A stretch of DNA of 64,000 nt from Moorella thermoacetica (lineage in GTDB: Bacteria > Bacillota > DSM-521 > Neomoorellales > Neomoorellaceae), in contig NZ_CP012369.1 of the NCBI RefSeq assembly GCF_001267405.1, positions 150,001-214,000 of the forward strand, read 5' to 3'. Of this stretch, positions 7,406 to 29,641 are shown piece by piece. The first letter of the stretch is position 1, and each line of letters opens with the position of its first letter. A program made the translations under genes and the position numbers. The notes beneath the pieces were generated by a model, which saw only the letters and a list, made by a program, of their open reading frames with translations, searched no databases and was not told where the DNA came from.

Positions 7406-7443
7406 ACGTTAGGCTGCTTTCCCTGGAGTCCTTTCCCCGGACC

Positions 7444-7490: not shown

Positions 7491-7532
7491 CCCGGCTTGG
7501 GCATATTTTTTCTAGCGGGGAGGTGCGACTTG

Positions 7533-9764: not shown

Positions 9765-9793
9765 TTGCTAAAATCCTTTGCCTGCAGTATAAA
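9765..9793 (+). promoter_or_regulatory. Sigma-A promoter of the ctsR operon
   Basis: A -35 TTGCTA (9765-9770), a 17-bp spacer and a -10 TATAAA (9788-9793), directly abutting the CtsR operator. The 200 bases upstream hold two GC-rich hairpins but no gene. Confidence 0.7.
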
Positions 9794-9795
9794 AA

Positions 9796-9812
9796 AGTCA
9801 AAGAAAGTCAAA
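9796..9812 (+). promoter_or_regulatory. CtsR operator (heptad direct repeat)
   Basis: AGTCAAA (9796-9802), GAA, AGTCAAA (9806-9812) matches exactly the known CtsR consensus of two RGTCAAA heptads three bases apart. It sits at the transcription start of the ctsR-mcsA-mcsB-clpC operon, so CtsR bound here would block RNA polymerase. Heat or stress relieves repression. Confidence 0.92.
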
Positions 9813-9867
9813 GATAAATAATGGCAGCCAGGAAAGGCATCCTGCCCGGCAGGGGAGGTGAAGGCTT

Positions 9868-10353: not shown

Positions 10354-10367
10354 AAGGGGGCAAAAAA

Positions 10368-11926: not shown

Positions 11927-11967
11927 TGAAGGGTATTAATCCCCATCATCCAAGGAGGGATTTAACA

Positions 11968-14490
11968 ATGGCACGTTTTACCGAAAGAGCGAACCGGGTC
12001 CTGCGCCTGGCCCAGGAAGAAGCCCTGGCCCTGCGTCACCCGGCCATAGGCACCGAACATATCCTGCTGGGGATCTTACGGGAGGGCGACAGCGTCGCCG
12101 CCCGCGCCCTGACCAATCTGGGAGTTAACATCAAAGCCGTCCGCGAAGAGGTCCGCAAGGTCATCCGGCCGGGCGAAGCCGTCGTCGGCGGCGAGTTGGG
12201 CCTGACCCCGCGGGCGAAAAGGGTCCTGGAGCTGGCCAACGAGGAAGCCCGGCGCCAGGGGGTCAACTACGTCGGCACCGAGCACCTCCTTTTAGGCCTG
12301 CTGGAGGAAGGTGAGGGCCTGGCGGCCCAGGTCCTGGGCGGCCTGGGCTTAAGCCCCGAGAAGATCCGCGAGCAGGTAATCGCCCTGCTGGGAGGGGCCG
12401 GCCAGCCCCAGACCGGCGGCTGGACCGTCCTCTTCGGCAACCTGCCCTTCGGCATGGCGGCTTTCCCCGGGGGCATGGGCTTCCAGGCCCAGGGTATGCC
12501 CGCGGGGGCCAAGATGCAGGAGCGGCGGCCCGGGCAGACGCCCACCCTGGACCAGTTCAGCCGGGACCTCACCCGCCTGGCCCGGGAAGACAAACTCGAC
12601 CCGGTAGTCGGCCGGGAGAAAGAGATTGAGCGGGTCGTCCAGATCTTAAGCCGCCGGACCAAGAACAACCCGGTCCTCATCGGCGACCCGGGCGTGGGCA
12701 AGACGGCCATCGTCGAGGGCCTGGCCCAGAAGATCGTCCAGAACCAGGTGCCGGAGGTCCTGCGGGACAAACGGGTGGTGGCCCTGGATATGTCCGGCAT
12801 GGTGGCCGGCACCAAGTACCGGGGCGAGTTCGAAGAGCGCTTTAAAAAGGTCATGGACGAGGTCCGGGCTGCCGGCAACGTCATCCTCTTTATCGACGAG
12901 CTCCACACCCTCATCGGCGCCGGGGCCGCCGAGGGGGCCATCGACGCCGCCAACATCTTAAAACCCGCCCTGGCCCGGGGCGAACTCCAGACCATCGGCG
13001 CCACCACCATCGACGAGTACCGCAAGCACATCGAGCGGGACGCCGCCCTGGAGCGCCGCTTCCAGGCCGTCATGGTGGAAGAGCCCACGGTGGAGGAAAC
13101 CATCGCCATCCTGAAGGGCCTGCGGGACCGGTATGAAGCCCATCACCGGGTCAAGATCACCGATGAGGCCCTGGAGGCCGCCGCCCGGCTCTCCGACCGC
13201 TACATCACCGACCGCTACCTGCCGGATAAAGCCATCGACCTGGTGGACGAGGCCGGCTCCCGGGTGCGCCTCAAAGTCTACACGGCCCCCGACGACGTAA
13301 AGAAGCTGGAGGCCCGCCTGGAAGAGCTCGAGAAAGAAAAAGCCGCGGCCGTCAACGCCCAGGAGTTTGAAAAGGCCGCCACCCTGCGGGATGAAGAGAA
13401 GAAAATCAAAGAAGAGCTGGAAGCCAAAAAGGGCGAGTGGCAGAAGGAAAAGGGCCTGGAGAAATCCGTGGTCACGCCGGAGGACATCGCCCAGATCGTC
13501 TCCAGCTGGACGGGGATCCCCGTTACCCAGCTCGCCCAGGAGGAGAGCGAGCGGCTGCTGCACCTGGAGGACGTCCTGCACCAGCGGGTCATCGGCCAGG
13601 ACGAGGCCGTCCACGCCGTGGCCCGGGCCGTGCGCCGCGCCCGGGCGGGCCTCAAAGACCCCAAGCGGCCCATCGGCTCCTTCATCTTCCTGGGACCCAC
13701 CGGCGTCGGCAAGACGGAGCTCGCCCGGGCCCTGGCCGAGGCCCTCTTCGGCGACGAAGACGCCATGGTCCGCTTCGACATGTCCGAGTACATGGAGAAG
13801 CACACCGTCTCCCGGCTGGTGGGCGCCCCGCCCGGCTACGTCGGCTACGAGGAGAGCGGCCAGCTGACGGAGGCCGTCCGGCGCCGGCCCTACAGCGTCG
13901 TCCTCTTCGACGAGATCGAAAAGGCCCACCCGGACATCTTTAACGTCCTGCTCCAGGTCCTGGACGACGGCCGGCTCACCGACGCCAAGGGCCGCACGGT
14001 GGACTTCCGCAACACGGTGATTATCATGACCTCCAATATCGGCGCCAGCACCATCAAGCGGGAGAGCCTGGGCTTCAAGGCCTCCACCAGCGAAGTGGCG
14101 GCCGAGTCTTACGACAAGATGAAGAAGCACATCCTGGAAGAACTGCGGCGGACCTTCCGGCCCGAGTTCTTAAACCGCATCGACGACCTCATCGTCTTCC
14201 ATGCCCTCTCCAGGGACGACATCCGGAAGATAGTCGACCTGATGCTGGCCGAACTAAACCGCCGCCTGGAGGACAACAACCTCTCCGTCGAGGTAACCGA
14301 CGAGGCCAAAGATATCCTGGTCCGGGAGGGCTTCGACGAGGCCTACGGCGCCCGGCCCCTGCGCCGCGCCATCCAGACCCTCATCGAAGACCAGCTCTCC
14401 GACGAGATGCTGGCCGGCAAATTTAAACCCGGCGACAAGGTCCGGGCCGTCGCCCGGGACGGCAAGATCGCCCTGGAAAAGGCGGCTTAA
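11968..14490 (+). CDS. clpC: ClpC AAA+ unfoldase
   Basis: An 840-residue Hsp100 protein. It contains the N-terminal double Clp-N repeat (about 1-145), first AAA module with Walker A GDPGVGKT and Walker [10 protein letters not shown], a middle UVR-type coiled coil (about 410-460) that binds McsB or adaptor proteins, a second AAA module with GPTGVGKT, and the C-terminal D2-small domain. It feeds unfolded or phosphoarginine-tagged proteins to ClpP. The start is ATG 11968, nine bases after AAGGAGG; the longer open frame from 11926 only extends into the mcsB stop. It is the last gene of the CtsR operon. In many relatives radA follows clpC, but here a foreign-looking sugar operon does. Confidence 0.96.
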
Positions 14491-14513
14491 GGCCGCAACG
14501 GGATAAAACCCAT

Positions 14514-14550
14514 AAAGCACCCGCGCGCCACGGGTGCTTTTTCTTTTTCT
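14514..14550 (+). terminator. Intrinsic terminator after clpC
   Basis: A perfect 10-bp stem AAAGCACCCG/CGGGTGCTTT (14514-14523 with 14531-14540), 7-nt loop, followed by TTCTTTTTCT. Confidence 0.9.
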
Positions 14551-14588
14551 ATCCATATTCTATATGCTTCAATATTGATGAAAAAAAC

Positions 14589-15277
14589 ATGCGAAGGTTG
14601 GTATATATAGTCGATTATTGCACCGACGAGGTTTACGGCTCCCTGGGGGCGGAAGGGTATTTTACGGAAATCTCCCCCCTGAATCCCAGCAGTCCTTACT
14701 CGGCCAGCAAGGCGGCGGCTGACCTGCTGGCCCTGGCTTACTATAAAACCTACAATCTGCCGGTGATCGTTACCCGCTGCTCCAATAACTACGGGCCGTA
14801 CCAGTTTCCGGAAAAACTGATCCCCCTGATGATTACCAATGCTTTGGAGGACAGGCCCCTGCCGGTGTACGGCGACGGGCTGAACGTGCGCGATTGGTTG
14901 CACGTGCGGGACCACTGCATCGCCCTGGACCTGGTCCTCCATAAAGGCCGCCCCGGGCAGGTGTACAATATCGGCGACAATAACGAAAGGACCAACATCG
15001 AGATAGTCCGCCGGGTGTTGCGCGAGCTGGGCAAGCCGGAATCTCTGATCACCTTTGTCCAGGACCGGCCGGGCCATGACCGCCGCTACGCCATAGACGC
15101 TACCAGGCTGCTCCGGGAGCTGGGCTGGCAGCCGGCCTATGATTTTGAGCAGGGCCTGAAAGAAACCATCAGGTGGTACTGCGAGAACCGGACTGGTGGC
15201 GGAAAATCAAGTCCGGGGAGTACCGGGGCTACTACCGGCGGATGTACGCCGCCAGGCTGGGGAAGGCCCGGGGATGA
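14589..15277 (+). pseudogene. rfbB: dTDP-glucose 4,6-dehydratase, truncated and frameshifted
   Basis: RfbB makes dTDP-4-keto-6-deoxyglucose, the second step of dTDP-rhamnose synthesis. The remnant starts at TDEVYGSLG; the roughly 110 residues before it, including the NAD-binding Rossmann glycine motif, are absent. The catalytic SPYSASK (Tyr-x3-Lys) is present. Near 15191 one base is missing after AACCGG: the expected end [18 protein letters not shown] reads only in the -1 frame and stops at 15277, overlapping rfbD. The product cannot be active. Confidence 0.88.
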
Positions 15278-16124
15278 AAATTATCATTACCGGCGGCCGC
15301 GGGCAGCTCGGGCGGGAGCTGGCCGGGGTGCTTCTGGAGGCCGGCGGGCATGAGGTGATCAGCCCGGGCGCCAGGAACTCGATGTGACCAGGATGGAAGA
15401 GCTCATCCGGGCGTTTAAAGCCTTTTCGCCGGAGGTAGTTATCCACGCCGCCGCCGCAAATGTGGATCAGTGCGAACTGGATCATGACCTGGCCTACCTG
15501 GTGAACGCCCTGGGCAGCCGCAACGTGGCGGCGGCCGCCGCTATGGTGGGGGCCAAGCTTGTTTTTATCAGCACCGATTATGTCTTTAACGGCCGGGCGG
15601 GGCGGCCCTATACGGAGTTTGACGCCCCGGATCCCATCAACATCTACGGCAAATCAAAGCTGGCCGGGGAGCGCTACGCGGCCGAACTTTGCCGGCGGTA
15701 TTTTATTGTCCGCACCTCCTGGCTTTACGGCCGCCATGGGAAGAACTTTGTCAAAACGATGCTGGACCTGGCCGGGAAACGAGACGAAATCGCTGTGGTT
15801 AATGTTCAGGTCGGCTCGCCTACTTATGCCGGGGATCTGGCCCGCTTTATCGCCGGCCTGATTGAAACTGAGCTGTACGGTATCTATCATGCCAGCAACG
15901 GCGGCGAGTGTTCCTGGTTTGCCTTTGCCCGGGAGATCTTTCGCCTGGCGGGACTGAACCACGTCAGGGTCCGGCCCATTTCTTCGGCGGAATTAAACCG
16001 AACGGCCCCCCGGCCGGCCTATTCGGTGCTGGACAATTACTGCATAAGGCTGCAGGGCCTGCCGGATTTACGCTGCTGGCAGGAAGCCCTGCGGGATTTC
16101 TTGAAGGGAGAGGTGCTATCATGA
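15274..16124 (+). pseudogene. rfbD: dTDP-4-dehydrorhamnose reductase, frameshifted
   Basis: RfbD is an NADPH-dependent reductase for the last dTDP-rhamnose step. The start [13 protein letters not shown] (ATG 15274) is in frame 1, but from RQELDVTRMEE onward (15369) the protein continues in another frame to 16124. One base is missing in the CCCGGGC run at 15363-15369. The rest is complete, with NVDQCE, ISTDYVFNG and the YGKSKLAGE catalytic motif. Repair by one base would give a normal protein of about 284 residues, so a sequencing error is possible. Confidence 0.87.
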
Positions 16125-16576
16125 TTGCCGGGGTGCAAGTCAAAAAACTGGTCAGGCACTGCGACGACCGGGGCTTCTTTATGGAAATCTTACGGGAAGA
16201 TGACGAAATATTTTCCCGCTTCGGCCAGGCTTCCATGTCCAAGTCCTATCCCGGCGTTATCAAGGCTTTTCACTATCACGAGCACCAGGACGACCTGTGG
16301 TTTTTCCCGGTGGGCAATGCCCAGGTGGTCCTTTACGACCTGCGGGAGGATTCCCCTACCAGGGGCGAAACAAATGTTTTCTACCTGGGTGAGGACAACC
16401 CCATTTTGCTTCTCATACCCCGCATGGTGGCCCACGGCTACCGCGTGCTGGGCAACGAGCCGGCCATTATAATCTACTTCACCACTGCTTCCTACAACCG
16501 TTCCCATCCGGACGAAAAACGCATCCCCTGGGACGACCCGACCATCGGCTTTGATTGGACAACCAGGTACCGTTAA
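16121..16576 (+). CDS. rfbC: dTDP-4-dehydrorhamnose 3,5-epimerase-like cupin
   Basis: A 151-residue cupin resembling RfbC epimerases. [17 protein letters not shown] near residues 48-64 carries the catalytic-type histidine, and VAHGYRVLG near 106-114 is family-like. ATG 16121 overlaps the rfbD stop and has GGGAGAGG upstream. It is the only undamaged gene of the block, and is shorter than classic RfbC (about 180), so it may belong to a related 3,5- or 3-epimerase group. Without its partners it has no obvious substrate supply here. Confidence 0.75.
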
Positions 16577-16592
16577 AAAGAGGTGGATGGCA

Positions 16593-17333
16593 ATGAAAGC
16601 CCTGATTCTGTCCGGGGGCAAGGGTACGCGCCTGCGCCCCCTTACCTACACGACGGCCAAGCAGCTCATCCCCGTAGCCAACAAGCCTATTATCTTTTTT
16701 GTCCTGGACCAGATTGTCGAGGCGGGGATTCGCGATATCGGCGTGATCATCTCCCCGGAAACGGGGACCCTGGTCAGGGATGCCCTGGGGGACGGGTCCC
16801 GCTGGGGAGCGCGAATAACCTAAAACCCTCCTGGCGGGGGGGAGCTGGAGATTACCGACGCCATCCAGGAGCTTTTGAATATGGGTTACAACGTAGCTGC
16901 CCGTAAGATTGAGGGCTGGTGGCTGGATACGGGCAAGAAGGACGATATCCTGGAGGCCAACCGGGCGGTGCTTGATGCTTACGCCCGGCTGGAAATCAGG
17001 GGCGAAGTCGATGCGGAAAGCCACTTAAGTGGCCGGGTGGAAATCGGCGCCGGCACGGTGGTGAAAAACAGCGTGGTCAGGGGACCGGCCGTTATCGGGA
17101 AGGATTGTGTAGTGGAAAACTGCTTCGTCGGCCCCTTTACAGCCGTCGGCGATAACTGCCGGCTTTATAATGTGGGTCTGGAATATTCGGTGATCCTGGA
17201 AGGCTGCGAGATCAAGGACGTCCAGCGCATTGAGGACAGCCTGCTGGGAAAGAGCGCCCGGGTCTGCCACTCCGGGGACAACCGCCGCGCCCTGCGCATG
17301 TTTTTGGGTGATGATGCGGAACTGGTGATATAG
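16593..17333 (+). pseudogene. rfbA: Glucose-1-phosphate thymidylyltransferase (long form), internal deletion
   Basis: RfbA makes dTDP-glucose. The first 76 codons, with [19 protein letters not shown], are intact and end at TAA 16821. The C-terminal part resumes at LKPSWRGELEITDAI and runs through the left-handed beta-helix repeats to 17333. About 115-120 residues of the catalytic core are missing at the junction near 16815, and a run of seven Gs at 16836-16842 carries one extra base. The gene is dead. Confidence 0.88.
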
Positions 17334-17415
17334 ACCGATAAATTTGCCTGCCCTGAATTCCACCCTTGAAAGTTTTTATCGTCCCCAAAAGGGGCTATAG
17401 GAGGAAAGGGCAAAA

Positions 17416-17676
17416 ATGGGAAGAGGGGCATTCACTACTTTCATACAGGCAGCAATGAAAGAAGCTGTCATCGAGCAGCTTGAAGATGGTACTTTCTTCG
17501 CCGAAATACCTCCGTACCCTGGTGTTTGGGCTGACGGAAAAGATGAAAAGGAATGCCTAGCCACTTTGCAGGAAGTACTTGAAGAATGGCTTCTTTTTAA
17601 ACTGCGGGATGGGGATAACGATATTCCTGTTTTAGGCGGCGAGGATTTAAATCATAAATGGCAAGTAAAGCTCTAA
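17416..17676 (+). CDS. hicB: HicB-family antitoxin, orphan
   Basis: An 86-residue protein with the HicB partial RNase-H fold motif: AVIEQLEDGTFFAEIPPYPG then VWADGKDEKECLATLQEVLEEWL. HicB proteins neutralise the HicA mRNA interferase and repress their own operon. The ATG follows AGGAGG (17398-17403). No intact hicA is next to it, only a relic, so it may now be a free regulator or simply persist. Confidence 0.8.
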   Translation: MGRGAFTTFIQAAMKEAVIEQLEDGTFFAEIPPYPGVWADGKDEKECLATLQEVLEEWLLFKLRDGDNDIPVLGGEDLNHKWQVKL

Positions 17677-17812
17677 GTATGATTTTATGCGTCGGGGCCG
17701 GCATAAACTTCGCATACCCAATCACCATGGTGATGATATAAGCGTTTCATTATTAATCAGAATTTTAATAAGCAACGTTAGCAAGGAAGAATGGGATAGC
17801 TTGAGTGAATGA
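17658..17812 (+). pseudogene. hicA toxin relic
   Basis: Frame 17678-17812 reads FMRRGRHKLRIPNH, then ILISNVSKEEWDSLSE and stop. This resembles the HicA double-stranded-RNA-binding fold with its catalytic-histidine region and the C-terminal ISxEEW motif. A possible original start, ATGGCAAGTAAA at 17658, is in another frame, and the central part is shortened. It follows hicB directly, as expected for a hicBA pair. Confidence 0.55.
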
Positions 17813-17881
17813 ATAAAACTCATTTCTATAGTTGTATATCGCAGTGGCCAAGCTGATGACCGTGTTGGCCGGTGCTTAGTT

Positions 17882-18087
17882 AAATTTCACTTTATAAGAT
17901 CTATGTCCATAATACGGAGTGGGATCGGAGATGGTACGGCGATGGTCACCGCTGTGTAGTTAAGTATAATTTAATTTGTTCAGGTGAAGGTGATGGAGAG
18001 GCGCCTGTTGCCCCGGGATGTTATATGATAAAATAAAAAAAGGAGAATTATCCCTGATGCCCTCAATCGATCTCCCGATCAAACGTT
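17882..18087 (+). repeat. Rpn-gene leader repeat, copy 1
   Basis: About 206 bp nearly identical to 27696-27901; the last 70 bp also match 24138-24210. It contains GTTAAGTATAATTTAATTTG, an AAGGAG site and a conserved short frame starting MPSIDLPIKRL. It marks the 5' flank of an Rpn/DUF4351 gene. Confidence 0.8.
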
Positions 18088-18480
18088 TGGTCCAGCGAAG
18101 AGCTGGTGACTGGATAAGATTTCTACAACGGTCATGCCGGGAAGAGTGGATCAGGCCATGAGCCCATGGGCTATTACGACCCGGCTCTACCGGCCCGGAT
18201 GATGCGCTACCGGAGTGATATCTGGGAGGCAACTTTACAAGCTGGCAAAGGAACGCCTCCAATTCTCCAGGCAGTGTTTTTCTTTTACCCTGAACATGAT
18301 AACAAAAACCACCAGCTCAGTGATTACTGGGGTAACTTAAAGACCCTGGAATTTACCTACCGGGTAGTTCGGGTTTGGGAAGAGCCCAGGCAATCCGTGA
18401 TAGAGCGGGGACTTATCGGTCTTTACCCCCTGCTTCCGTTAATGAAGGGAGAAAAAAACAACTGCGCTGCCGGCTCCGGA
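18058..18480 (+). pseudogene. Degenerate Rpn/DUF4351-type nuclease gene
   Basis: ATG 18058 starts MPSIDLPIKRLVQRRAGDWIRFLQ, like the N-terminus of Rpn-family PD-(D/E)XK putative transposases. The frame then breaks. A second piece (frame from 18166) gives LPARMMRYRSDIWEA and TYRVVRVWEE, then GLIGLYPLLPLMKGE, the conserved later part. At about 18458 the coding part joins directly to AACAACTGCGCTGCCGGCTCC, which in the intact copies lies downstream of the stop. So both the middle and the 3' part are deleted. Confidence 0.7.
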
Positions 18481-18509
18481 GTACGCCTAAATTATCCCTG
18501 CGGTGCAGA

Positions 18510-18776
<267 letters not shown>

Positions 18777-18792
18777 ATTAAGGGGAATAAAG

Positions 18793-19158
18793 ATGCTGAG
18801 ATTTAAAATCGATGAAAATCTTCCCATTGAGATTGCTGATCTTCTCAGGGAAGCAGGTTATGAAGCTGAAACTGTCTGGTCAGAACAAATCCAGGGATTT
18901 TCTGATATTGAACTTTTAGGTATTTGCCGGAATGAAAAACGGGTTCTAGTTACCCTTGATATGGATTTTTCGGATATTCGCAGGTATAGACCTGAAGATT
19001 ATCAAGGAATAATTTTACTTCGTATAGCGTCTCAAGGCAAACAGAGTGTTATAAATCTTTTCAAAAAAGTCATCCCCCACCTACGTTATCAGAATCTTAT
19101 TGGATATTTATGGATAGTACAAAAAGATCGAATCAGGATTAGAGGACCTGAAAGATGA
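18793..19158 (+). CDS. DUF5615 PIN-like toxin
   Basis: A 121-residue protein. MLRFKIDENLP carries the first acidic residues and RVLVTLDMDFSDIRRY the second acidic patch typical of Mut7-C/DUF5615 PIN-fold RNases. A GIILLRI strand follows. It is preceded by its DUF433 antitoxin, forming a toxin-antitoxin pair. Its RNA target is unknown. Right after the stop the sequence changes abruptly to an Rpn 3' relic. Confidence 0.83.
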   Translation: MLRFKIDENLPIEIADLLREAGYEAETVWSEQIQGFSDIELLGICRNEKRVLVTLDMDFSDIRRYRPEDYQGIILLRIASQGKQSVINLFKKVIPHLRYQNLIGYLWIVQKDRIRIRGPER

Positions 19159-19159
19159 A

Positions 19160-19263
19160 AGGTCCAAATCCTGGACCGCATTCTAGATGAGCTGTTTGCT
19201 GCTGATACTATAGAAGAAGCGCGGGCAGTTATTTTAGGAAAGATCGCCGGGGGCCTCCAGTAA
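19160..19263 (+). pseudogene. 3' end of another Rpn/DUF4351 gene
   Basis: About 104 bp match the last 34 codons and stop of the intact copies at 24248-25201 and 27941-28918 (LQILDRILDELFAADTIEEA). There is no start or body in front. The right-hand 15-bp repeat (19283-19297) follows. Confidence 0.85.
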
Positions 19264-19282
19264 GTGCTTTTATGAGCGAAAC

Positions 19283-19297
19283 ACCTAATTCTAGTTG
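19283..19297 (+). repeat. 15-bp direct repeat, right copy
   Basis: Exact copy of 18510-18524. The two copies are 773 bp apart. Confidence 0.7.
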
Positions 19298-19427: not shown

Positions 19428-20453
19428 ATGCATGACAAGTTAAGGCGACTTATAGACCGCTTATTTAGAAAAATGATTGTACCTTTCCTTGGTGCTGGCG
19501 TTAGTTACAATGCCAATCCAGATGGACTAACTAGAACGCCAGATATGATTAGACGTTTGGCACAAGAATTAATATTAGAAGCTAAAAAATCTACCGAACT
19601 AGCAAAGTTTTTATTATGCATCTGTGGCAAACAAGATGGGACAGAATCTGATCTTTGCATAGATAAGTTATGTAATGCTGGTATGGCTGTTCTTGCAGAA
19701 GTTTATATACATCTACATAATGAAGTTAAAGCCTGTAATATTTTAAGGGTTGCCGAGTTTTGTGATTTAGAACCTACCCCGACGCATTGCTATATTGCTT
19801 ACATAGCACGGGAAGGCTATATAAACGAGATTATTACTACGAATTACGATACCTGCATGGAAAAGGCTTATGAAAAAAGCTTTAATAGGAATTTTACTAG
19901 TCGACAGGTAAGAGTGGTAACGAATTTATCTGAATACCGTCATTTTATCGATGATAGTAATCCCAAATACCCACTTCTACATATTTATAAAATTAATGGT
20001 TGTGCTAAAAAGTTTAAAGAAGATCCCCAAAACGAAGCTGCTAATATTGTTCTTACAGAACGCCAATTGCAGAACTGGCGCGAAAATAAATGGGCCCAGG
20101 ACATGTTCCGTGACCGATGCCGTACGCGGTCGATATTATTTTCAGGTTTTGGAAGCGAGGAACCTCAGATAAGGCATACTGTTTTACAGGTGATGGATGA
20201 ATTTATAAACAACGGGCAGAATTCAGGTAATAATGTAGAGGTATGGGATTATGAGAACTCTCCGTTTATTGCTGAATGGGGTGAAATGACTTTTTACCAG
20301 TTTCAAATTTTGAGTTCTTACTTGAGAGCCCACGGGTTAACTCAAATTACTATTAATGAAGTCCAAGAAGGAGCTTTTACTAAAAGTGATAAGGAGCTTT
20401 TTGACCGTTACCTACCTTGGAATGGTAAAAACCTTGATATGGAGCAGTTTTAG
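19428..20453 (+). CDS. SIR2-like NADase domain protein, cut by an in-frame amber codon
   Basis: The first 341 codons of a larger SIR2-family effector. Motifs: VPFLGAGVSYNA (residues about 16-27, NAD-binding), ITTNYDTCMEKAYE (about 135-148), HIYKINGC (about 185-192) with the His expected for NAD hydrolysis, and GFGSEEPQI (about 239-247). Bacterial SIR2 defence proteins kill infected cells by depleting NAD. The frame ends at TAG 20451, but the same frame stays open for 249 more codons. The end MEQF[stop]GVVYLLFIQRLL would read naturally with Trp (TGG to TAG). It starts with ATG after GGAGGATTAAACC. The next two genes overlap in tandem, so one operon is likely. Confidence 0.82.
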   Translation: MHDKLRRLIDRLFRKMIVPFLGAGVSYNANPDGLTRTPDMIRRLAQELILEAKKSTELAKFLLCICGKQDGTESDLCIDKLCNAGMAVLAEVYIHLHNEVKACNILRVAEFCDLEPTPTHCYIAYIAREGYINEIITTNYDTCMEKAYEKSFNRNFTSRQVRVVTNLSEYRHFIDDSNPKYPLLHIYKINGCAKKFKEDPQNEAANIVLTERQLQNWRENKWAQDMFRDRCRTRSILFSGFGSEEPQIRHTVLQVMDEFINNGQNSGNNVEVWDYENSPFIAEWGEMTFYQFQILSSYLRAHGLTQITINEVQEGAFTKSDKELFDRYLPWNGKNLDMEQF

Positions 20454-21203
20454 GGCGTTGTTTATTTACTATTTATACAGCGATTATTATCTGAAAAATA
20501 TTTTTCCCCAGGGAGTAAATTTAGCAATTATCTCCCTATAAGCCTTTCAATTCAACAACTTTTATTACAAGAATTTCGCCAGGAGATCTTGGGCCAGGGA
20601 GGTAATGAGTTTAAATTACAGGATCTTTTTATTTGGCATGAGAACGCCAGTTATCTCCAAGTCTCAGCTTTGCATCATAGGATACTTTTTCCGGGGGAAG
20701 AACTTGAGCCATATAATTATTGCGCTTTTCGCGATGAACCGGTGGCTCTTTGCATGCTCTACTTCCTCTGGTGGCTTTGCTATCGTGCTTATAATTATAA
20801 AGATAAAAGCTGGTTGCTTCCTTGTGCAGAAGGAAAAGCATTAGTACGAATATTTGTTGCTGAAGATAATAAGATCAAAATTCCGGTATACGTTTGCGGT
20901 AGGGATGGCTATTATAATTTAAATCAATTGGTTATGGGTTATGAGCCACCTTATTCTTTGGGCGTAATTTTTGTTCTAAATGGATATGGTCTTGAACCTA
21001 AAGTATTTCCCATATCCAATATAATAGATAGCCAGTTAGATATAATCCAATTTTATATAATCCCCGATGTTTATTGTTTTCGTAATTCATGCCAGAGCCT
21101 GGAGGATATATTAGAGGGTATAAGAAATCTTATTACAGACCCTGCTAAAATAAAAAAAGAAGCAGTTCATTGGAAGAAATGGGTGGAGGAAATCTATCAA
21201 TGA
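20454..21203 (+). pseudogene. C-terminal part of the SIR2 effector, after the amber codon
   Basis: Open in the same frame as the SIR2 gene from 20454 to TGA 21201. The translation runs GVVYLLFIQRLLSEKYF, then a mixed alpha/beta region without recognised motifs, ending AVHWKKWVEEIYQ. No good independent start exists: TTG 20589 has AGGAG only 3 bases before it. Its stop overlaps the next start (ATGA), so the region was once translated in the operon. It probably couples the SIR2 domain to the partner proteins (inference from multi-gene SMC defence systems). It is expressed only if the amber is suppressed or re-initiated. Confidence 0.7.
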
Positions 21204-21856
21204 TAGAGCATTTCAAGGAACTTTCAACCAAGATAAATGGGATACCTATTAAATGTCAAAGGGAGTACTTTGAAAATGATGGAGCATTACCACCTTCTTT
21301 ATTAATAACCTCTCCGGCTATGGTAGTTGCCATTTTTGCTCCTGATGCAAATAAAACATGGAATGAGCAACATGCTGCTTCATTTAAAAAGGCAGTCAGA
21401 ATGATTAATTACGTTATTCAATACCATGATACTCATCAAAACCTCGTTGTAATATATGTGGCACCTGATAAAGAACACTATAAAAATGCTGAAAGAGATT
21501 TTGTTAACCCATCGTTTACTGAGGGGGAATATGTTCTTTATTTATTCCGTGAGGAAGATATAAAAAAAGTAGACAAAATACTTTCGTTATTTGAAAATAT
21601 CCAATGGCGAATCGAAAAAATAACCTTTGAAGAATGGTTAGAGGCTGTCTTGAAAATTCAGGACAATAAACTCGTTAAAGAATGGTTGCAGGATTTTTTA
21701 GAGGAATTGTTAAAAAAAGAGATAGCCCTTGATTTACGTCAGGTAATTATAGATTCAATTCGCCAAAAAGCAGAAGAAATAGTTCGGCAAATAGAGGGAG
21801 GTTCTCGCAATGGAAGAAACGATCAGGATAAAAGAGATTACACTGGAGGGCTTTAA
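21200..21856 (+). CDS. Uncharacterised middle protein of the SIR2-SMC operon (LmuC-like by position)
   Basis: A 218-residue soluble protein with no recognised motif. The N-terminal half is alpha/beta (SLLITSPAMVVAIFAP and NLVVIYVAPDKE); the C-terminal half is acidic and helical with coiled-coil character (WLQDFLEELLKKEIALD). It starts at ATG 21200, overlapping the preceding stop. Its end overlaps the next gene by 47 bases in another frame. Its position between a SIR2 effector and an SMC ATPase is like LmuC of Lamassu systems, but sequence resemblance was not established. Confidence 0.75.
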   Translation: MIEHFKELSTKINGIPIKCQREYFENDGALPPSLLITSPAMVVAIFAPDANKTWNEQHAASFKKAVRMINYVIQYHDTHQNLVVIYVAPDKEHYKNAERDFVNPSFTEGEYVLYLFREEDIKKVDKILSLFENIQWRIEKITFEEWLEAVLKIQDNKLVKEWLQDFLEELLKKEIALDLRQVIIDSIRQKAEEIVRQIEGGSRNGRNDQDKRDYTGGL

Positions 21857-23999
21857 GTGTTTTTTTAAAAAGCAGTCAATTAATTGTGATGCCGATGTCA
21901 TAATTCTTACCGGAAATAATGGTTTTGGTAAAACTTCATTTATTGAGGCCCTCGAACTTATGGCTACAGGGAAAATTGAGCCGCGGATAGGTGAAAATAG
22001 CACTAAGAGGCCTTTCGAGAACTATATCAATAGGAATTTGTTATCAGGAGAAGCCAAAGCCAGGATAAAGGTCAAATGTCAAGACGGGCGAGTTTTTCAA
22101 GCAACGCTATTACCGGAAAGATTAGATGAAGAAAGTACTCTATTTCCACTCAATGGTTTTTCAACTTCATTTGTACGCAGTAGTTGTTTTTTTTATCAGG
22201 ATGGGGTAGAGAGTACATTTGGCAGGTCCCAGGAAGGAATTCAAGGAATAGCTGATGCTTTCGTAGGCGATTTTCCTAATAGAGAAATCCTGCTGGATGC
22301 GCTGGTAAAAGCGGCCGCTGAGGTTGAGAATATTCGAAGTAGCTTTCGAGCCAATTTAGGCAATGAGGATATTTTAAAAAATGAAGCGGCTGAGCAGGCC
22401 AGAAATTTACAAGCAATCATAGAATCAAATGAGTATCTAAAACAGCTAATTCCATTCCCAGCAAAGTTGGTTATCGCAAGTGGAAAATTGTCCATTCGGT
22501 ATAAGGAAAATATACAAAAATGGGTTGCAGCTTTAACCGGGCATGAACAGGGAGACCAGCCTGTATGTAAATTACTTGAGGAAGCAATTAAAGCAATTGA
22601 AAGTATAAGGAAGCAAGCTTTGGCTGATATACCACCACAAGCTGATATAAATGAAGGAGTTGCCAGGTTAAAAGAATTATTGGATAACCTTCCTGATTTT
22701 TTTCCTGTAACTGAAACTTCCCCTAAGGGAAATATTGCCTTAAAAGAGCTTACTGAGAAGGAAAAAGCCCTTGAACTAGAGCTCGCCAGGATCAAGACGC
22801 AGATGGGGCTTCTTTTAAGTGAAGAACAACTACCTATTCCAGGCACAAATATTTCAACCTGGATGGGGGAAATCCCCCTTATTGCTTCAATCGATTATAT
22901 GTTAAAGGTAAAGGCTAATTCCTCGGAAGTAGTAGTTGATGAGATATGGTCGATGTTGGAGAAGCATGGTGGTGATTGGAGCGATAAATTAAAAAGCAAG
23001 TGGCTTCAATATAAACAACTCCGTGACGAAGCCACGGCAATTACCCAAAAGATTTTTGAGATTAGGAAAGAAATTACTGGTATAAAGAAAAAAGAGGTGG
23101 ATTTTGATAATCTTTTGCAAGCCCTCAAATTATGGAGTGCCATTTTTGGAGCTCCTTTAGAAAAAGTAAACTTGGAAGATGGTACTGGATATGATCTTAA
23201 AAAGGCCCGTATGATGCTAAAAGAAAAATTCGTGAATATAAATGCTGCTGAAACAATGACAGCTTGGAATAAAGTATTGGAGTATCTACATAAATGGCAA
23301 CAGATTGAACAAAAGCTAGAAACAATTAAATTAAATTGGACCCCAGCAGCAAGAGAAGCCGATAAAAAGCTTTCAGATTTTATTAGCTGGGTCACTAAGA
23401 GAAATTTAGATAAATGGATTGAGGAAATAAAAGGCAATGCTTTAAGGGAAAATTATATTTCTAAATTAAACCAAGCCCTTGAGTATATTCTTTTTCAATT
23501 CGGTATGGGTAAAGAACTGGCCAAAAATGTACATTTTAAACGTAGTAATGGTAAGTTATATATACAGCGGTGGTCTGAAGATAATATAATAAGAGAAACA
23601 AATATTTTTCCTACTTTCTCGACAGCCCAAATAAATCAATTGGCAATTGCCTACATGCTTGCCCTTAATTGTGGGGTTAAAAATCATCCATTAGGTTTTA
23701 TTTGCCTGGATGATGTATCTAGCGCATTTGATTTAAATAATCTTGCAGCCGATGCCCATCTAATTCGCATGTTGGCTTATGGTAATAATCAGAGGCGGCA
23801 GGTTTTTATTACCAGCCATCATGATATTATTACTTCACGACTTTTGCCCTTACTATTGCCACCTAGTGGATTTAGACTTAAAGTGATTGAATTTACTTCT
23901 TTCCGGCCAGAAACAGGACCAGAACTAAGGTTTTATGAATGTAAGCAGGCAAGATCAGGGTACATAGCCTTGCAGAATGTTTTTAAGGTGGAGGCATGA
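21810..23999 (+). CDS. SMC/Rad50-like ATPase (LmuB-like)
   Basis: A 729-residue ABC-type ATPase of RecF/SMC organisation. Walker A is LTGNNGFGKTSFIE near residue 32; the N-terminal lobe starts IKEITLEGFKCF. A long helical middle (about 165-560) is rich in charged heptads. The C-terminal lobe has the ABC signature-like FSTAQINQLAIAYMLA near 605-620, Walker B LGFICLDDVSSAFD near 630-643, and a switch histidine in ITSHHD. Such proteins sense DNA ends or replication structures. ATG follows GAGGGAGG. With SIR2 upstream it fits a Lamassu-type anti-phage operon. Codon use is AT-richer than the chromosome, consistent with transfer. Confidence 0.85.
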   Translation: MEETIRIKEITLEGFKCFFKKQSINCDADVIILTGNNGFGKTSFIEALELMATGKIEPRIGENSTKRPFENYINRNLLSGEAKARIKVKCQDGRVFQATLLPERLDEESTLFPLNGFSTSFVRSSCFFYQDGVESTFGRSQEGIQGIADAFVGDFPNREILLDALVKAAAEVENIRSSFRANLGNEDILKNEAAEQARNLQAIIESNEYLKQLIPFPAKLVIASGKLSIRYKENIQKWVAALTGHEQGDQPVCKLLEEAIKAIESIRKQALADIPPQADINEGVARLKELLDNLPDFFPVTETSPKGNIALKELTEKEKALELELARIKTQMGLLLSEEQLPIPGTNISTWMGEIPLIASIDYMLKVKANSSEVVVDEIWSMLEKHGGDWSDKLKSKWLQYKQLRDEATAITQKIFEIRKEITGIKKKEVDFDNLLQALKLWSAIFGAPLEKVNLEDGTGYDLKKARMMLKEKFVNINAAETMTAWNKVLEYLHKWQQIEQKLETIKLNWTPAAREADKKLSDFISWVTKRNLDKWIEEIKGNALRENYISKLNQALEYILFQFGMGKELAKNVHFKRSNGKLYIQRWSEDNIIRETNIFPTFSTAQINQLAIAYMLALNCGVKNHPLGFICLDDVSSAFDLNNLAADAHLIRMLAYGNNQRRQVFITSHHDIITSRLLPLLLPPSGFRLKVIEFTSFRPETGPELRFYECKQARSGYIALQNVFKVEA

Positions 24000-24137
24000 T
24001 TACCATGTTATTTGCCTCTGCACCGGCCTGCTGGGGTGAATTTATTCTCTTGCGGGATAGATAGTGCTATGAACTTGCAGCAGCTCTGTATGGAAGAAGA
24101 CTGGTGAACGGGATGAAATATGCCTGTGGCTCCAGGT

Positions 24138-25345
24138 TGTTATATGGTAAAATAAAAAGAAGAGAATTATCCCTGAAGCCCTCAATCGATCTCCCTATCA
24201 AACGTTTGATTAACATTCTTGCAGCATTTATGGGGGAACAGTAGCGAATGAACATCGATCACGACCGTCTTTTTAAGGAACTAATCGAGACCTTTTTTGC
24301 TGAATTCATGCAAGCCTTTTTCCCCCGGGCATATGAAGCCATTGATTTTACCCATGTAAGATTCCTGCAGCAGGAGGTCTTTACCGACGTCACTGTCGGC
24401 GAAAAACACGAGGTTGATATTCTGGTAGAGACCCGCCTTAAAGGCGAAGAAGGCCTGATCATGGTCCACATCGAGCCGCAAAGTTATGTGCAAAAAGAAT
24501 TCAACGAGAGGATGTTTATCTACTTCAGTCGTCTTTACGAGCAATACCGCTGCAAGATCCTGCCGATAGCCATTTTTACTTACGACCAGGTGCGGGACGA
24601 ACCCGATACATTCACGACAGGATTTACTTTTCTGGACGTATTGCGCTTTCGTTTCTATAAACTGGAACTAAAGAAGCTGCCGTGGCGGGAATATATTCAC
24701 AGCAACAATCCGGTAGCAGCCGCGCTTCTTAGTAAAATGGGTTTTAAAGACGAAGATAGGGTCCAGGTAAAGTTAGAATTTCTGCGCATGCTGACGAGGT
24801 TAAAACTGGACCCGGCGCGGATGGAGATGCTGGCCGGATTCTTCGAGAGCTACCTGAAGCTAAGCCAGGAGGAAGAAGAAAGACTCAACTGTGAACTGGG
24901 TAGAATTGATAAAAAGGAGGCTGAGCCAATCGTGCAGATTACTACCAGTTGGCATGAAAGAGGCCGGATGGAAGGCAGAATGGAAGGCAGAATGGAAGGC
25001 CGGATGGAAGCAAAAAAAGAAACGATTCTTAAATATCTCTCCCGCAGGTTTGGGGATCAGCCGGCTGACCTGGAAGAAAAGGTGCAGAAAATAAGCGACC
25101 TCCAAATCCTGGACCGCATTTTGGATGAGCTGTTTGCTGCTGATACTATAGAAGAAGCGCGGGCAGTTATTTTAGGAAAGATCGCCGGGAACCTCCAGTA
25201 GGTGCTTTTGAGCCCCCGAACAACTGCGGTGCCGGCTCCGGGGTGACTTCCTTTACTATATTACCTTGACTGCCTAACGGGCGATTTGGGGATCGGCGGT
25301 AAGAATGGGCAGGTTTTCTATCTGGGCGTGGGAGACGAGAAGCTG
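24138..25345 (+). repeat. Duplicated Rpn segment, copy A (matches 27830-29050)
   Basis: From the leader (GTTATATGGTAAAATAAAA) through the nuclease gene and the downstream vapC relic, this segment is nearly identical to 27830-29050. The main differences are scattered substitutions, two fewer RMEG repeats in the gene and a slightly different spacer after the stop. Confidence 0.9.
24248..25201 (+). CDS. Rpn-family PD-(D/E)XK putative nuclease, DUF4351 tail, copy A
   Basis: A 317-residue protein. The nuclease core is in residues 1-130: the pattern EVDILVETRLKGEEGLIMVHIEPQSY shows the D...(D/E)xK-like core of Rpn recombination-promoting nucleases, where the lysine position appears replaced (HIEPQ). 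RMEG tetrapeptides occur three times near 240-252, followed by RMEAKKE and a DUF4351-like helical tail. ATG 24248 has a weak GGGGGAA site. Rpn proteins are DNA endonucleases that stimulate recA-independent recombination. A second copy lies at 27941. Confidence 0.8.
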   Translation: MNIDHDRLFKELIETFFAEFMQAFFPRAYEAIDFTHVRFLQQEVFTDVTVGEKHEVDILVETRLKGEEGLIMVHIEPQSYVQKEFNERMFIYFSRLYEQYRCKILPIAIFTYDQVRDEPDTFTTGFTFLDVLRFRFYKLELKKLPWREYIHSNNPVAAALLSKMGFKDEDRVQVKLEFLRMLTRLKLDPARMEMLAGFFESYLKLSQEEEERLNCELGRIDKKEAEPIVQITTSWHERGRMEGRMEGRMEGRMEAKKETILKYLSRRFGDQPADLEEKVQKISDLQILDRILDELFAADTIEEARAVILGKIAGNLQ

Positions 25346-26083: not shown

Positions 26084-26359
26084 TTGCAAGAAAAATTGCA
26101 GCCCAGGATGCTTAAAGTCAGCGAGGGCACTATAAGGCGTTGGGTGCAAAAGGGGGATTTGCCGGCCTTGCGTTATGGACGACAACTGCGCATACCGGCG
26201 AGCGCTTTAGAAAAATTAGGACGCCCGGCAACAGAAATATCTAACAAAAGCGATTGGCTGGCAAAATGCCGGGCCGCGCGGGTAATGATGCCCCTGAGGG
26301 GCGATAGGGCGAAGATCTTGCAGCAGCTCCGGGATAAGGTAGTGGAGAAAAATGAATGA
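26084..26359 (+). CDS. Excisionase-family HTH protein, N-terminus altered
   Basis: About 91 residues from TTG 26084, or 83 from ATG 26108. MLKVSEGTIRRWVQKGDLPALRYGRQLRIPASALEKL is a MerR/excisionase-like winged helix. The close paralogue at 29357 begins with a proper FYPPAELAR helix; here the corresponding bases are scrambled (LQEKLQPR), so the first helix is damaged or replaced. It overlaps the nucleotidyltransferase gene, suggesting it regulates the MNT/HEPN pair. Confidence 0.7.
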   Translation: MQEKLQPRMLKVSEGTIRRWVQKGDLPALRYGRQLRIPASALEKLGRPATEISNKSDWLAKCRAARVMMPLRGDRAKILQQLRDKVVEKNE

Positions 26360-26843
26360 GTTGGAGGAAGACATTCTTTACAGGTTTCAAGGCTTTTTTA
26401 AGACAAGGAATATTGATCTTGCTTATCTTTTTGGTTCTAGAGCCCGTGGGAAAGCCAGCCCTTTAAGCGACTATGATTTTGCCATCCTGGCACCCGATAT
26501 GGGAACGGAGGAGTATTATCGTCTTTTGCACGAGCTTTCTATGTTCATGGGTGGTGCCAAAGTGGATGTAGTTATGCTAAAATTTGCGCCGGTAGAATTG
26601 CAGTACAGAGTGATCAAAGATGGGATCCTCCTGTACCAGAAAGACGGTTATACCAGGGTCGAGTTTGAGGGCAATATCCTGAGCCGGTATTTTGATTTTT
26701 TACCTGTCTTACGCCAACAAAGGGAGAATGTTTTAAAGGAGGGTAAGAGTGAAAAGCGAGTTCAGCGGTATCGAGAGGCGCTTGGAAAAACTCTCGGAGT
26801 GCTTAACGAAATTAGAACCGCTCAAAACCAAATCATTCGATGA
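26352..26843 (+). CDS. MNT-domain nucleotidyltransferase antitoxin (MntA-like)
   Basis: A 163-residue protein. LAYLFGSRARGKASPLSDYDFAI matches the minimal nucleotidyltransferase motif GSx10DxD of MntA antitoxins, which add AMP to a tyrosine of the HEPN toxin. The ATG overlaps the HTH stop. The last 30 codons overlap the HEPN gene by 95 bases; the paralogue at 30134 lacks this tail, so a lost stop codon may have extended the protein. Confidence 0.85.
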   Translation: MNELEEDILYRFQGFFKTRNIDLAYLFGSRARGKASPLSDYDFAILAPDMGTEEYYRLLHELSMFMGGAKVDVVMLKFAPVELQYRVIKDGILLYQKDGYTRVEFEGNILSRYFDFLPVLRQQRENVLKEGKSEKRVQRYREALGKTLGVLNEIRTAQNQIIR

Positions 26844-27168
26844 CTTCGAGCAGGACCCCTATTTGCGGGATATTGTCGAGAGAAATCTGGAAGTAGCGGC
26901 CCAGTGTTGCATCGATATCGCTAACAGGGTAATATCCATTGAGGACCTGGAAAAGCCCGAGGATTATTACAGCGCTTTTATTACTTTAGGCCAAGCAGGG
27001 ATATTGCCGTTAAAGTTTGCGCGCAGTTTTGCCGGCATCGCTGGCTTTCGAAATATACTTGTCCATGAGTATATCCAGATTGATTGGCATGAAGTTTACC
27101 GCAACCTGCACAGGCTTGACGATTTTTATCATTTTGCCGACTGTATCAAAGCCTGGATGAAAAAATGA
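26749..27168 (+). CDS. HEPN-domain RNase toxin (HepT/DUF86-like)
   Basis: A 139-residue helical protein. GFRNILVHEYIQ near residues 102-113 contains the RX4HXY motif: Arg and His form the RNase site and the Tyr is the AMPylation target in HepT. GTG 26749 follows GGAGGG. Together with the MNT gene before it, it is a type VII-like toxin-antitoxin pair. Confidence 0.87.
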   Translation: MKSEFSGIERRLEKLSECLTKLEPLKTKSFDDFEQDPYLRDIVERNLEVAAQCCIDIANRVISIEDLEKPEDYYSAFITLGQAGILPLKFARSFAGIAGFRNILVHEYIQIDWHEVYRNLHRLDDFYHFADCIKAWMKK

Positions 27169-27695: not shown

Positions 27696-27901
27696 AATTA
27701 TACTTTATCGGCCTTATGTCCATAATACGGAGTGGGGACGGAGATGGTACGGCGATGGTCGCCCTTATGTAGTTAAGTATAATTTAATTTGTTCGGGTGA
27801 ACGTGATGGAGATGCGCCTATTGCCCTGGGATGTTATATGGTAAAATAAAAAAGGAGAATTATCCCTGATGCCCTCAATCGATCTCCCGATCAAACGTTT
27901 G
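27696..27901 (+). repeat. Rpn-gene leader repeat, copy 2
   Basis: Nearly identical to 17882-18087. It ends with a short frame from ATG 27868, MPSIDLPIKRLIQIIAAFMG, stopping 5 bases before the nuclease start; AAGGAG lies 11 bases upstream. The peptide matches the N-terminus of a different Rpn subfamily, so this leader looks recombined. Confidence 0.8.
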
Positions 27902-27940
27902 ATTCAAATTATTGCAGCGTTTATGGGGGAACTGTAACGA

Positions 27941-28918
27941 ATGAATATCGATCACGACCGTCTTTTTAAGGAACTAATCGAGACCTTTTTTGCTGAATTC
28001 ATGCAAGCCTTTTTCCCCCGGGCATATGAAGCCATTGATTTTACCCATGTAAGATTCCTGCAGCAGGAAGTCTTTACCGACGTCACTGTCGGCGAAAAAC
28101 ACGAGGTTGATATTCTGGTAGAGACCCGCCTTAAAGGCGAAGAAGGCCTGATCATGGTCCACATCGAGCCGCAAAGTTATGTGCAAAAAGAATTCAACGA
28201 GAGGATGTTTATCTACTTCAGTCGCCTTTACGAACAGCACCGCTGCAAGATCCTGCCGATAGCCATTTTTACTTACGACCAGGTGCGGGACGAACCCGAT
28301 ACATTCACGACAGGATTTACTTTTCTGGACGTATTGCGCTTTCGTTTCTATAAACTGGAACTAAAGAAGCTGCCGTGGCGGGAATATATTCACAGCAACA
28401 ATCCGGTAGCAGCCGCGCTTCTTAGTAAAATGGGTTTTAAAGACGAAGATAGGGTCCAGGTAAAGTTAGAATTTCTGCGCATGCTGACGAGGTTAAAACT
28501 GGACCCGGCGCGGATGGAGATGCTGGCCGGATTCTTCGAGAGCTACCTGAAGCTAAGCCAGGAGGAAGAAGAAAGACTCAACTGTGAACTGGGTAGAATT
28601 GATAAAAAGGAGGCTGAGACAATCATGCAGATTACTACCAGTTGGCATGAAAAAGGCAGGATGGAAGGCAGGATGGAAGGTAGAATGGAAGGCAGGATGG
28701 AAGGCAGAATGGAAGGTCGGATGGAAGCAAAAAAAGAAACGATTCTTAAATATCTCTCCCGCAGGTTTGGGGATCAGCCGGCTGACCTGGAAGAAAAGGT
28801 GCAGAAAATAAGCGACCTCCAAATCCTGGACCGCATTTTGGATGAGCTGTTTACTGCTGATACTATAGAAGAAGCGCGGGCAGTTATTGTAGGAAAGATC
28901 GCCGGGGGCCTCCAGTAG
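27941..28918 (+). CDS. Rpn-family PD-(D/E)XK putative nuclease, DUF4351 tail, copy B
   Basis: A 325-residue near-identical paralogue of the gene at 24248. The N-terminal 1-130 nuclease core and the C-terminal helical tail are the same. Differences include YEQH for YEQY, ETIMQ for EPIVQ, and five RMEG repeats instead of three, exactly explaining the 8 extra residues. Both copies appear intact. Confidence 0.82.
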   Translation: MNIDHDRLFKELIETFFAEFMQAFFPRAYEAIDFTHVRFLQQEVFTDVTVGEKHEVDILVETRLKGEEGLIMVHIEPQSYVQKEFNERMFIYFSRLYEQHRCKILPIAIFTYDQVRDEPDTFTTGFTFLDVLRFRFYKLELKKLPWREYIHSNNPVAAALLSKMGFKDEDRVQVKLEFLRMLTRLKLDPARMEMLAGFFESYLKLSQEEEERLNCELGRIDKKEAETIMQITTSWHEKGRMEGRMEGRMEGRMEGRMEGRMEAKKETILKYLSRRFGDQPADLEEKVQKISDLQILDRILDELFTADTIEEARAVIVGKIAGGLQ

Positions 28919-28949
28919 GTGCTTTTAGGCTCCGAACAACTGCGCTGCC

Positions 28950-29356: not shown

Positions 29357-29641
29357 ATGAGCGAAATATTTTATCCACCGGCAGAATTAGCCAGAATGCT
29401 TAAAGTCAGCGAACGCACTATAAGGCGTTGGATCCAAAAGGGGGATTTGCCGGCCTTGCGCTATGGACGGCAACTGCGCATACCGGCGAGCGCTTTAGAA
29501 AAATTGGGACGCCCGGCAGCAGAAATATCTAACAAAAGCGATTGGCTGGCAAAATGCCGGGCCGCGCGGGCAATGATGCCCCTGAGGGGCGATAGTGCGA
29601 AGATCTTGCAGCAGATCCGGTTAGATAGGGCAGACCGGTGA
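29357..29641 (+). CDS. Excisionase-family HTH antitoxin/regulator
   Basis: A 94-residue protein. FYPPAELARMLKVSERTIRR and IQKGDLPALRYGRQLRIP make a complete MerR/excisionase winged helix; the C-terminal tail from SNKSDWLAKCRAAR is shared with the paralogue at 26084. Its stop overlaps a PIN toxin start (GTGA), so here it probably acts as the antitoxin or repressor of that toxin. Confidence 0.83.
   Translation: MSEIFYPPAELARMLKVSERTIRRWIQKGDLPALRYGRQLRIPASALEKLGRPAAEISNKSDWLAKCRAARAMMPLRGDSAKILQQIRLDRADR

Follow-up and report, generated by a model that had tools for sequence, protein, structure and literature searches.

What does an operon that joins a SIR2-fold protein to an SMC/Rad50-like ATPase do in Moorella thermoacetica, and can the copy in this genome still do it? 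We analysed such an operon in a window of 64,000 nucleotides (positions 150001–214000 of a one-contig 2.53-Mb genome); coordinates below are counted from the first letter of the window. A first reading made from the letters and their translations (hereafter the sequence-only reading) had proposed a SIR2 protein, a middle protein without recognised motif and an SMC ATPase, tightly overlapping, as a Lamassu-type or new phage defence that depletes nicotinamide adenine dinucleotide (NAD). We found that the three genes, here named A (effector), C (middle protein) and B (ATPase), are a conserved unit, that the effector gene of the window is interrupted by an in-frame stop codon, and that an asparagine occupies the catalytic-histidine position of the SIR2 domain in every readable family member. 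We consider it rather likely that the locus arrived by horizontal transfer as a stand-alone abortive-infection cassette, gated by an SMC protein in the manner of Lamassu and ABC-3C, and that its effector gene was interrupted afterwards. Its parts are as follows.

19428–20453, + strand: N-terminal part of effector A, the SIR2 domain, 341 residues (Pfam SIR2_2 4.5e-18; alignments with relatives and controls)
20451–20453, + strand: in-frame TAG splitting the effector gene (frame reading; alignment with intact relatives)
20454–21203, + strand: C-terminal half of effector A (tblastn to the relative L020; frame open to the end)
21200–21856, + strand: C, middle protein of 218 residues (no family match; fused to B in five relatives)
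21810–23999, + strand: B, SMC/Rad50-like ATPase of 729 residues (Pfam AAA_23 4.9e-13, SMC_N 2e-12)

The effector is a single gene split by a stop codon

Contrary to the sequence-only reading, the SIR2 open reading frame (ORF) as drawn does not overlap C but ends 746 bases before it, and only C and B overlap. The SIR2 frame stays open throughout this interval after the TAG, however, and relatives carry the whole gene of about 591 codons (19428–21203) uninterrupted: the first alignment contains nine intact effectors, each of them one protein of 577–668 residues, and intact operons occur for example in Desulfofundulus thermosubterraneus and Roseospira navarrensis. The program had listed part of the C-terminal half as a 204-residue ORF from 20589, which has no Pfam match. 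We rejected it as a separate gene because it prolongs the SIR2 frame and because, in relatives with one undivided gene, its counterpart is the C-terminal half of the effector (42.9% over 261 columns by tblastn in the nearest, L020). The nine full-length relatives show SIR2_2 plus isolated sub-threshold Pfam rows only. Once this half is counted into A, the order on the + strand is A (19428–21203, interrupted), C and B, with overlaps of 4 bases between A and C and 47 bases between C and B. Thus, the three-gene operon of the sequence-only reading is real and its overlap of C with B stands, but the interruption of its effector had been missed, as had the CRISPR association of its relatives described below.

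In the intact relative L033, the position of the TAG is taken by residue 370, within a predicted helix (366–386) into which the top structural matches of L033, ThsA and KomC, extend (their ranges end at 374–387 in the first four rows). A truncated product would therefore miss the end of the SIR2 fold together with the C-terminal half. Identity between the window and L020 is 59.5% before the stop and 45.3% after it, and seven listed intact pairs of similar identity before that position (54–61%) fall to 41.5–50.6% behind it. Because there is no excess decay behind it, the stop looks young, which fits a recent event; an assembly error would also be possible. Pyrrolysine insertion at the TAG is unlikely, since a search of the genome for the PylS N-terminal domain gave no match (the positive control, Methanosarcina acetivorans, matches) and the relatives have ordinary residues in that column. 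With its effector interrupted, no function is expected of the window copy unless the split protein is still made, and we regard this copy as probably inactive.

Could the operon then simply be a decaying cluster that no longer serves its host, or look broken only because the assembly is wrong? The TAG would be explained either way, and damage recurs among the relatives: A is frameshifted in L022 and 5′-truncated in L026, B is in pieces in L045, only fragments are left in L056–L058, and in L028 (3968–8094) the effector is directly followed by an SMC gene and no C gene was found between them. Yet the window has open frames for both C and B, and the sequence downstream of the stop has diverged no further than expected. 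We hold decay or misassembly to be a serious possibility, though on the doubtful side.

A, C and B form a conserved unit

How widespread is this arrangement? A search with B detected it in 2 of the 22 class genomes (E≤1e-20) and in 13 of the 398 phylum genomes (E≤1e-10), the genome of the window being counted in both. A pattern-based contig scan with the effector alignment yielded 27 loci, from which we removed another SIR2 protein that has the histidine (L059), the fragments L056–L058 and the contig-end loci L035, L040 and L052, and in which L020/L033, L030/L048 and L031/L039 were each counted once as the same locus. All 20 assessable loci, retrieved with the effector alone, have C and B behind A in the order A-C-B. 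A, C and B are therefore a conserved unit, and the co-occurrence in other genomes, whose absence would have refuted the sequence-only reading, is found. C is about 190–280 residues long in the family and separate B proteins about 675–790, and the two are fused into one protein in five loci (L042, L043, L047, L049 and L051); fusion and co-occurrence together argue that C works with B.

In the effector tree, the window groups with L020 as its sister (100/100), and L044 branches next to the pair. An initial contig scan with B, a plasmid search with C and effector searches of viral contigs and phages gave no matches, and nine relative loci gave no Rfam match at gathering score. Comparison with PHROGs returned weak rows only.

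B is an SMC-type ATPase and C matches no family

The description of B as an SMC/Rad50-like ATPase proved sound. The window protein carries Walker A (GNNGFGKT) and Walker B (FICLDD) motifs and a sequence, FSTAQ, that is only signature-like; in most relatives the signature reads [LF]STGQ. All 13 aligned B proteins have Asp rather than Glu after the Walker B aspartate; a pattern search finds this Asp-Asp in 28 of 29 distinct B proteins, and the remaining one, L027, has it in the alignment. A CxxC zinc hook occurs in none of the 29. Sequence searches of solved structures with B returned rows of SMC, Rad50 and PtuA type and some unrelated rows.

C of the window is as unrecognised as had been reported, with no Pfam or NCBIfam match at the curated cut-off, a single weak PADLOC row (HamB, 0.0091) and only chance-level rows in a sequence search of solved structures. 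Its predicted model is of low confidence (mean predicted local distance difference test 70.0, predicted template modelling score (pTM) 0.51) and found no Foldseek match at E≤0.001 and nothing at Z≥8 in VIA-align, lists from which a family may be missing without thereby being excluded. About ten of 50 VIA-align rows were chains of Mre11 or SbcD complexes (Z 4.2–5.8) and one Foldseek row was a universal-stress-protein domain, all too weak to use; the matched part of the Mre11 and SbcD chains is probably the Mre11 capping domain.

A SIR2 fold with asparagine at the catalytic-histidine position

The SIR2_2 match and the motifs FLGAGVS, TTNYD and KING (KINGC) place the N-terminal part of A in the SIR2 fold, as proposed. 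A sequence search of solved structures with A gave none at E≤0.1. The predicted model of the L033 effector (pTM 0.87) aligned with KomBC (Z 22.4, root-mean-square deviation (rmsd) 2.6, 254 aligned), ThsA (Z 22.2, rmsd 2.7, 263 aligned) and DSR2 (Z 20.5, rmsd 2.9, 258 aligned).

Is the active site intact? The sequence-only reading had listed HIYKING among the SIR2 motifs, but the catalytic-histidine position within it is an asparagine (N190), while N139 of TTNYD is kept. Asparagine stands at this position in 32 of 32 readable family members, the window included, as against histidine in 25 of 25 distinct outside SIR2 proteins. These controls were gathered with the PADLOC LmuA and Pfam SIR2_2 profiles and extracted via the TTN motif; L107 and L124 were not extractable, and four duplicates and three family members were removed. 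The glycine-rich motif does not vary across 10 sequences, nor do N139 and D141, and Y140 varies hardly at all. Thus, of the catalytic Asn/His pair on which the sequence-only reading depended, the histidine is lost family-wide and the asparagine is retained.

The motif around this position (IHGCA, LTRRELQHWR) recurs in one outside protein, L118/L127, which retains the histidine. At L127 (2185–7111) it is a 650-residue SIR2 protein encoded in a two-gene system with a 1078-residue SMC-like protein whose P-loop comes only after some 340–360 residues, behind a long N-terminal extension. This system is a possible sister of the SIR2-C-SMC family.

What would a SIR2 domain without the histidine do? 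Excerpts of two studies bear on this: in ThsA, N112A and H152A abolish activity, H152A disturbing the oligomers too (PMC7272460), and H171A is an inactive mutant of DSR2 (PMC11263360). The domain of A might therefore not be an enzyme but bind an NAD-derived nucleotide as a sensor or scaffold, the killing being left to another part such as the C-terminal half of A. Consistent with binding, engineered histidine-to-asparagine exchanges occur in structures that are ligand-bound according to their titles, 9xvc (KomBC H146N) and 1m2j (Sir2 H80N). On the other hand, the remaining active-site residues are conserved as described above, the replacing asparagine is itself invariant, which suggests an active role and speaks against simple decay, and the C-terminal half has no known domain. 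We consider a non-enzymatic A unlikely.

Comparison with known defence systems

Is the cassette a Lamassu system? According to a review, LmuB is likely the sensor and LmuA the effector, which is NAD-directed in some cases; many but not all LmuB proteins have zinc hooks, and a Glu-to-Gln exchange in LmuB is reported (PMC10586767). B of the window matches the PADLOC LmuB model PDLC03859 (4.1e-25; 3.3e-24 in the genome search) and aligns over its C-terminal head with a longer LmuB-matching group (hhalign 99.3%, E 1e-20), an alignment that contradicts a lack of any relation between the ATPase and LmuB. We nevertheless rejected the PADLOC match as proof of Lamassu, because SMC-sized control proteins score nearly as well; at E≤1e-15, 8 of the 14 control genomes contain a match to the model. 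The SIR2-type LmuA model PDLC03856 gives 1.5e-3 for the window, 4.4e-4 for L033, 6.1e-3 for L021 and nothing for L053, compared with 9e-188 for the Lamassu-Sir2 example L070, and C of the window, L033, L034, L021 and L053 has no PADLOC LmuC row. Given a generic LmuB match, a weak LmuA match and none to LmuC, we do not file the cassette as Lamassu-Sir2: profile evidence does not show membership.

Several observations weigh against our favoured reading of a cassette of the Lamassu/ABC-3C kind: (i) SMC-sized proteins of 1,000–1,300 residues match the LmuB model as well, down to 1.1e-23; (ii) B lacks the CxxC present in 13 of 13 LmuB-matching comparison proteins, among which only L070 and L094 were also checked for LmuA and LmuC; (iii) C has no detectable similarity to LmuC (hhalign 0.1–0.5%), a feature that discriminates poorly since the two compared LmuC groups are unlike each other too (0.1%); (iv) A and the compared LmuA profiles give hhalign values of 0.1–0.2%, although the LmuA of L070 is a SIR2 protein; and (v) the histidine needed by the ThsA and DSR2 NADases is replaced in all readable members. 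The last point means that NAD+ depletion may be wrong, and NAD hydrolysis as first written is uncertain.

The defence proteins ThsA, KomBC and DSR2 share the SIR2 fold (Z 20–22) and TTNYD, but ThsA and DSR2 use Asn with His where the window family has a second Asn; their triggers are cyclic ADP-ribose, deoxyinosine triphosphate (dITP) or a phage tail protein (structure titles and an excerpt of PMC11263360), whereas in the window family the trigger presumably acts through C and B. L070 (LmuA PDLC03856, LmuC PDLC03874, LmuB PDLC03866) has the same order A-C-B of SIR2 effector, small middle protein and SMC-like ATPase, but its LmuA is a 429-residue protein with an intact HG motif, its LmuC has 158 residues and its 644-residue LmuB has CxxC; the window family has a longer effector (577–668 residues in the first nine), Asn for His, no LmuC similarity and no CxxC in B. 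The longer LmuB-matching systems (L094, L096, L098 and L099) resemble the family in the size of B and the Walker B Asp-Asp and give the best profile match, yet have CxxC and unrelated C and A profiles (hhalign), and the effector of L094 matches LmuA PDLC03848 and no SIR2 model. Known ABC-3C middle-component and C-terminal Pfam families gave no match at E≤1 in 11 C and 10 A proteins, which does not exclude ABC-3C. The cassette probably works like Lamassu or ABC-3C.

Relatives at the head of type III-B CRISPR loci

Some relatives' cassettes stand at the head of, or inside, type III-B (Cmr) loci. On plasmid AZO_p2 of Azospirillum lipoferum 4B the order is SIR2, C, SMC, cmr1, cas10, cmr3, cmr4, cmr5, cmr6, with cas1, cas2, cas6 and two short repeat arrays nearby. 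The cassette lies directly upstream of cmr1-cas10 in L019, L037, L038, L043, L047, L049, L051 and L055; RAMP genes flank it on both sides in L053, their presence being the sole basis for counting that locus as linked, and one RAMP gene precedes A in L052. Seven genes of 354–432 residues directly behind B in other loci all belong to the RAMP superfamily; three further proteins examined were MurJ, which lies behind B in L041, a 1075-residue protein of L053 without Pfam match and a UvrD helicase of L054. In L043, L047, L051 and L053, B touches or overlaps the ORF that follows it, as judged from mechanically set ORF starts. GGDD is present in 8 of 10 Cas10 or Cas10-place proteins; the sequence of L051 is incomplete, and the L053 protein, which lacks GGDD, may not be Cas10. 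To our knowledge, SIR2 and SMC proteins are not core Cmr components.

Solimonas aquatica (L057, 7914–16490) retains an N-terminal fragment of the family's SIR2 protein directly upstream of cmr1-cas10-cmr3-4-5-6, which suggests a cassette lost from a III-B locus.

How regular is the linkage? Scored by A. lipoferum queries or a home-made Cmr1 profile, 8 of 14 SIR2-found loci with at least 1.2 kilobases (kb) behind B are linked to III-B genes, or 9 of 15 when A. lipoferum is added; six of the 20 loci (L036, L039, L042, L044, L045 and L050) have less than 1.2 kb there and were left out. In a wider set that includes the window and eight phylum loci found with B, 9 of 24 loci are linked, leaving 15 unlinked. 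A Cmr1 match exists somewhere in 22 of 37 genomes or records with the family or its fragments (that of L059 included), not always beside the cassette: genomes of some unlinked copies have Cmr1 elsewhere (for example L033, L034, L046, G020, G189, G237 and G286). The Cmr1 model TIGR01894 misses loci that the home-made profile finds, such as that in the genome of L055, so that absences by TIGR01894 alone are weak. The window has no cmr or cas10 gene beside the cassette, and its whole genome has no RAMP or Cmr1 match.

Has the cassette been recruited by CRISPR loci repeatedly? When unjudgeable contig-end rows are set aside, two changes of CRISPR label suffice among the 23 rows of the effector tree, and repeated recruitment is therefore not shown. 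We dropped that idea, as the four changes (three forced) behind it arose from contig-end rows counted as unlinked.

These loci invite another explanation, in which the cassette serves above all as an accessory to type III-B systems: recognition by the Cmr complex, guided by CRISPR RNA (crRNA), would trigger C and B and hence the SIR2 effector, and the stand-alone Bacillota copies would be orphaned or independently evolved. The eight cassettes directly before cmr1-cas10, the RAMP genes around L053 and before L052, the SIR2 fragment of L057, the abutting or overlapping ORFs and the number of genomes with Cmr1 all point this way. However, most loci of the wider set have no III-B gene behind B, the genome of the window lacks RAMP and Cmr1 matches, the tree needs only two label changes, and the neighbourhood may merely reflect shared mobility; we find this explanation improbable. 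A bolder synthesis would make the cassette a distinct SIR2-C-SMC defence family whose Asn-Asn active site has another NAD chemistry, such as transfer of ADP-ribose or binding of NAD that is not followed by hydrolysis, and which was recruited as an effector or sensor front end of III-B operons in several phyla. We put it forward tentatively, as rather improbable.

The titles and abstract openings returned by our literature searches hold no SIR2-C-SMC module in III-B operons; those searches did not reach the main papers on ABC-3C, on the Lamassu family and its structures and on type III accessory genes, and a prior description may exist. A legend on CARF/SAVED CRISPR-linked genes includes SIR2 and, in that legend, no SMC (PMC10910872), and excerpts of another study name Sir2 in several systems and SMC in Lamassu, the two not being joined there (PMC10952713).

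The operon lies within a repeat array

The low GC (guanine plus cytosine) fraction of the operon, rightly noted as AT-rich, is 0.368 in A, 0.346 in C and 0.378 in B, against 0.598 in the upstream flank (1–19000) and 0.597 in the downstream flank (30001–64000). Around it lies an array of Rpn-like (PF04754) repeat units, the operon being placed between the first and the second.

18003–19286, no strand: first Rpn-like unit, an apparent remnant (direct repeats D3 and D5; flank BLAST)
24122–25224, + strand: second Rpn-like unit (gene 24248–25201, PF04754 1e-5)
about 27815–28941: third Rpn-like unit (direct repeats)

Of the first unit, we detected only a copy of the 5′ flank (18003–18089) and the 3′ tail (19163–19286); the body was not found between them. 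DUF433 and DUF5615 genes (18522–19158) occupy the place where that body would be expected. The Rpn-like genes of the second and third units are 96% identical. A 230-base repeat (26103–26332 and 29391–29620, 95% identical) apparently belongs to a larger duplication of about 24–26 kb versus 28–30 kb. At 26352–27168, a small nucleotidyltransferase-like gene (weak PADLOC PDC-S09 rows) overlaps a HEPN-like gene with the motif RNILVHEY, a pair that resembles MntA-HepT toxin-antitoxin and was named by inspection only. The toxin and nuclease island of the sequence-only reading comprises the Rpn-like repeats and the DUF433 and DUF5615 genes; the toxin-antitoxin labels of the other neighbours were given by inspection. 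The patchy distribution of the family and the low GC of the operon within a recombining repeat array fit arrival by lateral transfer.

A proposed model for SMC-gated killing

How would an intact cassette work? On our favoured reading of a stand-alone abortive-infection cassette, B, presumably as a dimer, and C would recognise an aberrant structure of invading nucleic acid and then release or oligomerise effector A via its C-terminal half. The SIR2 domain would in turn attack NAD+ or a related nucleotide, or transfer ADP-ribose, and the infected cell would be stopped. Where the cassette is linked to III-B genes, the Cmr complex may take part in the recognition or in switching on A.

Defence gated by SMC proteins and type III CRISPR are commonly regarded as two distinct systems. 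If the III-B association is functional, crRNA-guided detection would be coupled to a killing switch gated by an SMC protein, either replacing cyclic-oligoadenylate signalling or acting alongside it. A cassette found in both settings, on its own and heading Cmr operons, is a natural means of testing whether RNA-guided detection can drive an SMC sensor or work together with it. In a SIR2 defence protein that is otherwise conserved, the invariant replacement of histidine by asparagine allows a direct test of a catalytic requirement that has been assumed. The copy in M. thermoacetica adds a natural example in which the effector is interrupted and the presumed sensor genes are still open.

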